A DNA stretch of 64,000 bases from Massilia violaceinigra (GTDB taxonomy: Bacteria > Pseudomonadota > Gammaproteobacteria > Burkholderiales > Burkholderiaceae_D), in the NCBI RefSeq assembly GCF_002752675.1, contig NZ_CP024608.1, forward strand, positions 2,852,001-2,916,000, written 5' to 3'. This document shows, piece by piece, positions 44,437 to 45,619 of this stretch. A program made the translations under genes and the position numbers. The notes below the pieces were generated by a model, which worked only from the letters and a program-made list of their open reading frames with translations, ran no database searches and was not told the origin of the DNA. Numbering within the stretch: the first letter of the stretch is position 1; each line of letters starts with the position of its first letter.

Positions 44437-45456
44437 TTAGAAGTAACTGAGACCCATCGCGCGCTTGACCTCGTCGGCCGTGCGCGCCGCCACTTCGCGT
44501 GCGCGCGCGGTGCCTTCTTTCAGGATCTGCATCACATGGCCGCGGTCCTTTTCCAGCTCGGCGCGGCGGGCGCGGATCGGGGTCAGGAATTCCTGCAGGC
44601 ACAGTTCGAGGCGCGCCTTGACGATGCTGTCGGCCAGGCCGCCGCGCTGGTAATGCGCCTTCATCTCGGCCAGCGCTTCCTTTTCCGGATCAAAGGCATC
44701 CAGGTAGGCGAACGCGATATTGCCTTCGATATGGCCGGGATCGGCCACGCGCAGGTGCAGCGGGTCGGTGTAGACCTTCTTGACGGCCGCGCGCACTTCG
44801 TCGGCGCTGGCCGACAGGTTGATCGTGTTGCCGAGCGACTTGCTCATCTTGGCCTTGCCGTCGATGCCCGGCAGGCGCCCGATTTCCGGCACCAGCGCCT
44901 TCGCTTCGACCAGCACTTCAGCGCCGGCGATGCGGTTAAAGCGGCGCACGATTTCATTGGTCTGTTCGATCATCGGCACCTGGTCTTCGCCTACCGGCAC
45001 CAGCACCGCCTTGAACGCGGTGATGTCGGCCGCCTGGCTGGCCGGATAGGTCAGGAAACCGGCTGGAATGTCGCGCTCGAAGCCGCGCAGGCGGATTTCT
45101 TCCTTGACGGTCGGGTTGCGCTCCAGACGCGCTACCGTCACCAGGTTCAGGTAGTAAAAGGTCAGTTCGGCCAGTTCCGGAATCTGCGACTGGATCAGGA
45201 TGGTCGACTGGGCCGGGTCGATCCCGGTGGCCAGGTAGTCGAGCGCCACTTCGATCACGTTGCGCTGGACCTTGGCCGGGTCGTCCATATTGTCGGTCAG
45301 GGCCTGGGCGTCGGCCAGCATGATGAACTGGCGGTAGTCGCGCTGGTAGGTCACGCGGTTGCGCAGGCTGCCCACGTAGTGGCCAAGGTGGAGCGGGCCG
45401 GTCGGGCGGTCGCCGGTCAGGATGATGGGTGCTGCGCTGGTTGCTGGTGTTGGCAT
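44437..45456 (-). CDS. trpS: Tryptophanyl-tRNA synthetase
   Basis: Class I aminoacyl-tRNA synthetase charging tRNA-Trp, 339 residues. The HIGH-like motif is in [17 protein letters not shown] and the KMSKS motif in [37 protein letters not shown] is typical of the bacterial enzyme. The start follows GAGGGA. Upstream on the same strand lies a leader peptide with two Trp codons and an attenuator hairpin, so supply of charged tRNA-Trp should regulate this gene. The racemase-family gene lies further upstream on the same strand. Confidence 0.96.
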
Positions 45457-45503
45457 GTCGATAGTCCCTCGGGTGGTGGTGCCCCTATCGGAAAACGCTC
45501 ATG

Positions 45504-45530
45504 AAAAACGCCGCCCAATCGAGGCGGCGT
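45504..45530 (-). terminator. Attenuator terminator upstream of trpS
   Basis: Reading the minus strand, ACGCCGCC (45530-45523) pairs with GGCGGCGT (45515-45508 region) across a short loop and is followed by TTTT. It lies between the Trp-Trp leader peptide and trpS. Its 5' arm CGCCGC can alternatively pair with GCGGCG in the segment just after the leader stop. Confidence 0.88.
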
Positions 45531-45568
45531 TCATGGAAAACACATGATGGTGCAGGCGCCGCGCGATG

Positions 45569-45619
45569 TCAGCGCAGCCACCAATTCGAACCCAAGGCAT
45601 GTGAATTAATCATTTTCAT
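45569..45619 (-). CDS. TrpL-type leader peptide for trpS attenuation
   Basis: A 16-codon reading frame, MKMINSHALGSNWWLR, preceded by GAGG at a good distance. Tandem Trp codons at positions 13-14 lie four codons from the stop. The Trp-codon segment (TGGTG GCTGCGC) can pair with GCGCGGC...CACCA just downstream, forming the 1:2 hairpin of a classical attenuator. Low charged tRNA-Trp would stall the ribosome on WW, free segment 2 to pair with segment 3, and allow read-through to trpS. A TTGACA (minus strand, 45654-45649) upstream is a candidate -35 without a clear -10. Confidence 0.85.
   Translation of the reverse strand: MKMINSHALGSNWWLR

Follow-up and report, generated by a model that had tools for sequence, protein, structure and literature searches.

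How the synthesis of a tryptophanyl-tRNA synthetase (TrpRS) is adjusted to the supply of charged tRNA-Trp is the question raised by the region upstream of trpS in Massilia violaceinigra. This gene, encoding a 339-aa short-type enzyme similar to TrpRS II, occupies positions 44437–45456 of the minus strand in a 64,000-nucleotide stretch of contig NZ_CP024608.1 (the window, with position 1 as its first letter). The first-pass annotation had placed a trp-type transcription attenuator in front of it, and this is still the best reading, through a leader with two adjacent Trp codons (WW leader), an antiterminator and a terminator that are conserved in many relatives. As set out below, the sequence comparisons make it highly probable that a ribosome-mediated transcription attenuator controls this gene and that the regulated product is an auxiliary TrpRS.

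All of the elements of the putative attenuator were located on the minus strand, directly upstream of trpS. A short open reading frame of 16 codons, MKMINSHALGSNWWLR, starts with an ATG at 45619 and ends with a TGA stop codon (45569–45619), and its WW frame was also found in relatives. The tandem Trp codons TGGTGG, the predicted stall site, occupy positions 45578–45583 and are near-invariant in the alignment of leaders described below (alignment A1). The cognate codons are therefore in a short ORF placed directly before the structures, which were divided into four segments. Segment 1, GCTGCGC (45572–45578), is the partner of segment 2, GCGCGGCG (45557–45564), with GCTGCGC at 45578–45572 pairing with GCGCGGC at 45564–45558. 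Segment 2 can alternatively pair with segment 3, AACGCCGCCT (45522–45531), since its GCGGCG (45562–45557) is complementary to CGCCGC (45529–45524). Segment 3 is thus part of the antiterminator or the 5′ arm of an intrinsic terminator whose 3′ arm and U-tract are provided by segment 4, GGGCGGCGTT, with its T-run (45504–45516); the terminator stem joins 45531–45522 with 45516–45507 around the loop CGATT, and TTTTT lies at 45508–45504. The leader with its tandem Trp codons, the 2:3 complementarity and the terminator with its T-run had all been pointed out in the annotation and could be read directly from the sequence, the terminator being a GC hairpin with five Ts. The claimed 1:2 pairing held in its inner part, as an isolated 28-nt stretch that ends 5′ of CACCA folded into the inner 7 bp only, while the outer TGGTG/CACCA pairing (45583–45579 with 45552–45548) lies outside the folded stretch and is present as complementarity. 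The fold of the whole region (45625–45497, 129 nt) reached −48 kcal/mol with a z of −2.17, and 7 of 200 shuffles were equally good.

The specificity of this arrangement was analyzed with a detector requiring TGGTGG in an ATG-started frame near its stop codon, a GC hairpin 30–110 bases further on and at least five T in the next nine bases. On both strands of the window only one of the 72 TGGTGG sites passed, and it was the trpS leader. Among 80 named loci (540,814 bases) the detector gave 31 matches at trpS and one elsewhere. Moreover, 46 of 105 related trpS upstream regions passed, and none did in each of 20 dinucleotide-shuffled sets. The bare motif TGGTGGCKSCGCTGA, tried as a genome-wide probe, was rejected as unspecific, being found at 72 places with at most one mismatch and at four exactly. 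A simple consensus scan for promoters and terminators listed neither the terminator of the trpS leader nor its TTGACA promoter; the terminator was probably missed because the rule of the scan counts the AA/TT pairs as part of the stem, so that fewer than five T are left. Rfam gave no attenuator match on the window at the gathering score, and only chance-level matches at E values up to 10 between 45400 and 45800. The covariance model RF00513, which we take to be the Trp_leader family, found no match in the window, so that the trpS leader is not filed there. A T-box leader was also considered and discarded, with no Rfam T-box match in the window and none at the gathering score in 17 related loci; in the window and these 17 loci the trpS attenuator was not matched above threshold by any Rfam family.

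The conservation of the leader was analyzed in 195 genomes of the family, 105 of which have a close relative of trpS (matches below 1e-100). These were classed by script and partly by hand, a T-rich tail being defined as a run of at least four T, or at least five T, within nine bases after the last G/C of the stem. A WW leader with hairpin and T-rich tail was present in 46 genomes, a WW leader with hairpin and T-poor tail in 13 (12 genomes of the Janthinobacterium-like group g6, and G091), and a leader with a single Trp codon in 10, this last class being partly hand-set. The remaining 36 were classed as leader-less, including all 11 of the Collimonas-like group g28, although on reading a leader with one or two Trp codons was still recognizable in at least three of them: G018 (L107) and G139 (L148) have a WW leader with a weaker hairpin, and a single-Trp leader is visible in G176 (L163). 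In the 80 named loci, the WW leader of trpS was read in 42; the WW ORFs seen in L012 and L069 are seemingly unrelated to it. The conserved WW frame and terminator on whose presence in relatives the first-pass annotation had made its reading depend were therefore found in many of them.

To look at the stems column by column, 56 distinct leaders from 69 leader-bearing genomes were aligned (A1), with identical segments collapsed and G119, G132, G165 and G133 left out. In the terminator stem 94.3% of the 560 cells were paired, and 33 cells had changed on both sides, as in the replacement of C-G by U-A at columns 93/114, a number reached by none of 500 shuffles. When the partners were slid by one to three columns, at most 66% remained paired. 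The number of pair types was not above that of the shuffles (280 of 500 reached it), and the innermost pair was unpaired in 21 of the 56 leaders. The core of the antiterminator was paired in all 280 cells and four of its five pairs never vary; because of this near-invariance, covariation gives neither support nor refutation for the 2:3 pairing. The covarying stems that had been anticipated were thus found in the terminator, but not in the antiterminator, and the mutual exclusion of the two structures is read from the sequence and from the 3:4 covariation. The 1:2 fold was moderately better than its shuffles (mean z −1.4, with 39 of 56 leaders below −1).

The position of the promoter suggests where transcription would begin. 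A −35 hexamer TTGACA (45649–45654, minus strand) is separated by a 17-nt spacer from a putative −10 hexamer GAGGAT (45626–45631), which agrees with TATAAT in only three of six positions and ends 6 nt upstream of the leader ATG. An exact TTGACA was present in 48 of 69 family leader loci. A promoter-like pair with a score of at least 8 whose end lies 6 or 7 nt upstream of the leader ATG was found in 61 of the 69, compared with a mean of 2.4 of 69 for shuffled stretches, a fit that is favoured by the use of the best-scoring ATG in leaders with several. A Shine-Dalgarno-like string was observed in 4 of the 69 loci, including that of the window, in which the string and the putative −10 overlap. Outside these 69, 25 loci were counted without a shuffle control; the promoter pair ended 6 or 7 bases upstream of the ATG in 19, and its score was at least 7 in 14 of the 19. 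The trpL RNA of Sinorhizobium meliloti begins at its ATG, according to the available excerpt of PMC7298713. From this precedent and the promoter geometry, the start is expected at 45619 or right next to it, and termination should yield an RNA of about 116 nt, so that the leader RNA of the window is predicted to be leaderless, beginning at its AUG.

The identity of the regulated enzyme was then considered. The product of trpS matched NCBIfam TIGR00233 with 222.7 bits (cut-off 176.75). A second TrpRS of 400 aa, 45% identical over its first part, is encoded elsewhere in the genome (G000:C1:3446235–3447434), and the short enzyme therefore stands beside a house-keeping one. The annotation had been right that trpS is the regulated gene, but had missed that trpS is the second TrpRS: the direct feedback that it described becomes the induction of a probable back-up enzyme. 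A search of the 195 family genomes detected long-type TrpRS (E 1e-60) in 145; of the 105 short-type genomes, 57 also encode the long type and 48 do not, and in these 48 the short enzyme is not auxiliary. In the genome G192, two equal-scoring long-type copies (C1:31014–32213 and 7421502–7422701) are situated near both ends of one contig and are possibly an assembly overlap.

The closest solved relative of the short enzyme is TrpRS II, the nearest PDB chains being 1yi8 (named TrpRS; E 1.3e-119) and 2a4m (named Tryptophanyl-tRNA synthetase II), presumably enzymes of D. radiodurans, and both have Gln in the same motif as the short TrpRS of the window. This Gln was present in all 147 short-type records where the long-type motif DWHALT has His; some of these records represent the same gene present in two collections, as do some of the 109 loci searched. 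All 10 long-type records, which represent 8 genes because three of them are one gene, have the His, and this residue aligns with a His of chain 2el7, which we assume to be the Thermus enzyme. The indolmycin-binding determinants of the Bacillus TrpRS are His43, Asp132 and Gln147 (PMC4899734, excerpt). By homology, with the numbering carried over, the His of DWHALT is taken to be His43, and the residues aligned with Asp132 and Gln147 are kept in both types. The short enzyme has therefore lost an indolmycin-contact His, a replacement by Gln that alone proves insensitivity to no inhibitor.

We infer a start site, ribosome stalling, read-through, induction and a back-up role, which would operate together in the following manner. 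Transcription would start at or beside the leader AUG. With plentiful Trp-tRNA, the ribosome would pass both Trp codons and continue to the stop codon, which borders segment 2, and thereby mask this segment; the 3:4 hairpin would form, and transcription would stop after about 116 nt. During a shortage of Trp-tRNA, caused by tryptophan starvation or by a disabled house-keeping TrpRS, the ribosome would stall on UGG UGG and cover segment 1, whereupon 2:3 pairing would block the terminator and trpS would be transcribed. As a further TrpRS is encoded in the genome, failure of that enzyme would also raise the signal for trpS. Three reports, each available as an excerpt, fit a back-up role and are no test of the trpS of the window: HipA2 inactivates TrpS in Caulobacter (PMC8545095), insertions are tolerated in Salmonella trpS, which according to the authors may be due to trpS2 (PMC3487940), and trpS2 was 2-fold up together with trp genes in biofilm (PMC2805695). 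The published trpS2 would be the gene of our locus L235.

The output of the leader appears to vary among relatives. In all 12 sampled genomes of group g6, which have the short TrpRS only, the WW codons and the hairpin are kept and no T-run follows. In these 12 and in five named Janthinobacterium loci (L029, L037, L040, L042 and L047), the T-run is replaced by GGTGGCGTAACAGG; L009 and L010, also named Janthinobacterium, have a T-rich tail. In the Duganella-like group g40 a single Trp codon was observed in 3 of 3 short-only genomes and in 3 of 8 two-enzyme genomes. A link between the strength of the attenuator and the sole or dual status of TrpRS is suggestive only, because the genera are not independent. 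Outside the family, a WW leader with no T-run right after the hairpin was seen in L201, L203, L210, L213, L215, L220 and L222–L225, of which L201 and L203 carry alphaproteobacterial names, and L214 has a T-run after its hairpin. In those loci the region before the trpS start folded with z between −2.3 and −0.4, about half being within 1.5 sd of the shuffles, and they are possibly a translational form of the same control. A complement of segment 3 near the trpS start was also analyzed, with a mean duplex z of −2.2 over 55 loci and exact complements at p < 0.05 in 19 of 58. Loci of the groups g26, g22 and g6 (e.g., L172, L174 and L126) have a segment-4-like stretch near the trpS start that can pair with segment 3, for example ACCGGCGGCAT in g26.

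Additionally, the arrangement was searched for beyond the family. A sample of 398 genomes of the phylum contained 25 with a short-type TrpRS (E below 1e-90). In 22 further phylum trpS loci, the WW leader was found in 17 and the other five were classed as without leader. The families of the WW-bearing loci belong to the same order, to the same class or to other classes, and before the stop their leaders end, for example, in WWRA, WWRSF, WWRSN or WWLPS. The leader was also read at Variovorax, Burkholderia pyrrocinia, Methylocystis rosea and Agrobacterium rubi plasmid loci, in records of E. coli, Klebsiella, Aeromonas and Salmonella, and on a Deinococcus plasmid and a Streptomyces plasmid. It was absent at a plasmid locus of Rhizobium leguminosarum. 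The plasmid version of trpS is rare in E. coli, with 2 of 5426 complete genomes when near matches only are counted, both plasmid-borne. At least 10 Klebsiella plasmid records, among the matches listed, correspond to residues 92–336 of trpS only. The trpS of the window also matched 24 Staphylococcus plasmid records, one of which, L231, was read and has no WW leader. The Firmicutes plasmid loci L231, L232 and L234 were considered as further candidates and set aside, as neither a T-box nor a WW leader was found in them. In a tree built from 72 enzymes, 11 changes of the WW label were needed, against a mean of 23.8 for shuffled labels, with labels set by hand, some deep branches weak and long, and near-copies helping the labels to cluster; this fits an old arrangement that has been repeatedly lost.

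Several other explanations were weighed against these data. The hairpin might be nothing but the terminator of the upstream racemase-family gene, with the WW ORF arising by chance and trpS having its own constitutive promoter. The racemase gene does lie on the same strand, with its stop at 45670, about 140 nt upstream of the hairpin. This explanation is nevertheless extremely improbable in view of the detector specificity and the shuffle controls, of the recurrence of the arrangement far outside the family, and of the WW frame and stem being kept where the upstream gene differs; of 109 loci searched, no more than 10 have a racemase in the vicinity of trpS, so the leader belongs with trpS and not with the upstream gene. 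That the terminated short RNA or its peptide acts in trans, like rnTrpL/peTrpL of S. meliloti, would agree with the predicted leaderless start, which is as in that organism (PMC7298713, excerpt). The N-terminal half of the peptide is highly variable between loci, however, and in reading the window no pointer to a trans target was noticed; we regard such a function as very unlikely.

Control could instead be mainly translational or mixed, with a hairpin near the trpS start ("segment 5") that competes with segment 3 and gates the read-through RNAs. Duplexes beyond the shuffles in g26 (mean z −5.1), g22 (−4.5) and g6 (−3.1), the 12 g6 genomes that keep WW and hairpin without the T-run, and the folded region before the trpS start in the non-family loci lacking a T-run speak for it. 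By contrast, there was no such signal in the genus of the window (mean z −0.34; the window itself, +0.2), the terminator of the window is complete, the fold of the start region was not beyond the shuffles in the family (mean z −0.48), and in L201, L203, L213, L215, L220 and L222–L225 its z ranged from −2.3 to −0.6. For this locus we consider such control unlikely. Somewhat less unlikely, though still improbable, is a real attenuator on an ordinary TrpRS whose supply is matched to tryptophan, with no role as a back-up or in inhibitor tolerance. It would suit the 48 of 105 family genomes where the short TrpRS is the sole one found, of which 14 were classed as WW with a T-rich tail. In the genome of the window, however, both enzymes are present; a higher share of the two-enzyme genomes has WW with a T-rich tail (32 of 57, versus 14 of 48 of the short-only genomes, Fisher p 0.006, uncorrected for kinship); and every short-type record has Gln at the aligned indolmycin-contact His.

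The preferred reading, an attenuator on an auxiliary TrpRS, was compared with known systems. In Streptomyces, an auxiliary, antibiotic-resistant TrpRS gene is under ribosome-mediated attenuation, as Vecchione and Sello are said to have described in 2010. The first-pass annotation had contrasted the locus with the classic attenuators of trpE, which holds in that trpS is regulated here, but attenuators had already been predicted for Streptomyces trpS/trpS2 (PMC1262725, excerpt). Both systems have a leader-peptide attenuator upstream of a second trpS, and the Streptomyces plasmid trpS has MHLSSCLSWWRSS with a stop and a GC hairpin upstream; the hosts differ, the system of the window being proteobacterial and known from sequence alone, and the Streptomyces plasmid enzyme is very distant from the TrpRS of the window (branch 4.48, placement unsure). 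With enterobacterial trpL-trpE the locus shares the tandem Trp codons, the 1:2, 2:3 and 3:4 logic and the U-tract terminator, whereas its regulated gene is a synthetase and its leader is predicted to be leaderless. The pheST genes encode a house-keeping enzyme. Their gamma-proteobacterial attenuator (PMC1262725, excerpt) is likewise a classical one on a synthetase operon, with Phe in place of Trp. S. meliloti trpL-trpE(G) has in common an RNA starting at the leader ATG (PMC7298713, excerpt), which is predicted for the window, but biosynthesis is controlled there and a synthetase here. In the open full-text literature, which leaves subscription papers mostly uncovered, trpS leader-peptide attenuators were found for Streptomyces only. 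The locus is best read as belonging to a known kind, in which a back-up TrpRS is induced in response to tRNA charging, as has been published for Streptomyces trpS, and as a representative that is widely conserved in Proteobacteria. The seemingly new aspects are the existence of a proteobacterial branch with TrpRS II and the wide distribution of this branch, together with its predicted leaderless geometry and graded decay.

Two further observations concern the surroundings. The trpE gene of the same genome is preceded by a leader ORF, MFFIKKHNVTQTGSIEAWLWRRWQSWAK, with four Trp codons (L196:3055–3141, minus strand, the same as G000:C1:1331311–1331397), a hairpin of −14.7 kcal/mol followed by GTTTTTT, and 93 nt between the leader stop and the trpE ATG. 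The wider 191-nt fold was not beyond the shuffles (z 0.30). This leader is probably a separate trpE attenuator, and since trpE has its own Trp leader, tryptophan synthesis and charging may both be attenuated. Within the window, an antitoxin-type ORF named by eye, presumably HigA-like (41492–41809, plus strand), overlaps the end of two ORFs that we take to be transposase-like (41784–42964, minus strand).

In a wider sense, the leaderless WW attenuator and an inhibitor-tolerant TrpRS II may together make up a module that is widespread in Proteobacteria and in part carried on plasmids. Such a module would be triggered by the charging state and serve as a back-up when the house-keeping TrpRS is poisoned by Trp-analogue antibiotics or by TrpRS-inactivating HipA-type kinases; its output would have switched between transcription termination and Shine-Dalgarno hiding across lineages, and would decay where the spare enzyme becomes the sole one. 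This proposal is tentative, and we consider it possible more than probable. If the attenuator on trpS works in the manner preferred above, many Proteobacteria, including those behind the Klebsiella- and Salmonella-labelled records, would hold an inducible second TrpRS whose switch senses the charging of tRNA-Trp directly, which would have a bearing on inhibitors directed at TrpRS and on toxins disabling this enzyme. The arrangement would also offer a natural series for the gain, retuning and loss of an attenuator, from WW with a terminator through WW without a U-tract and a single Trp codon to no leader, and this series also spans transcriptional and possibly translational forms.
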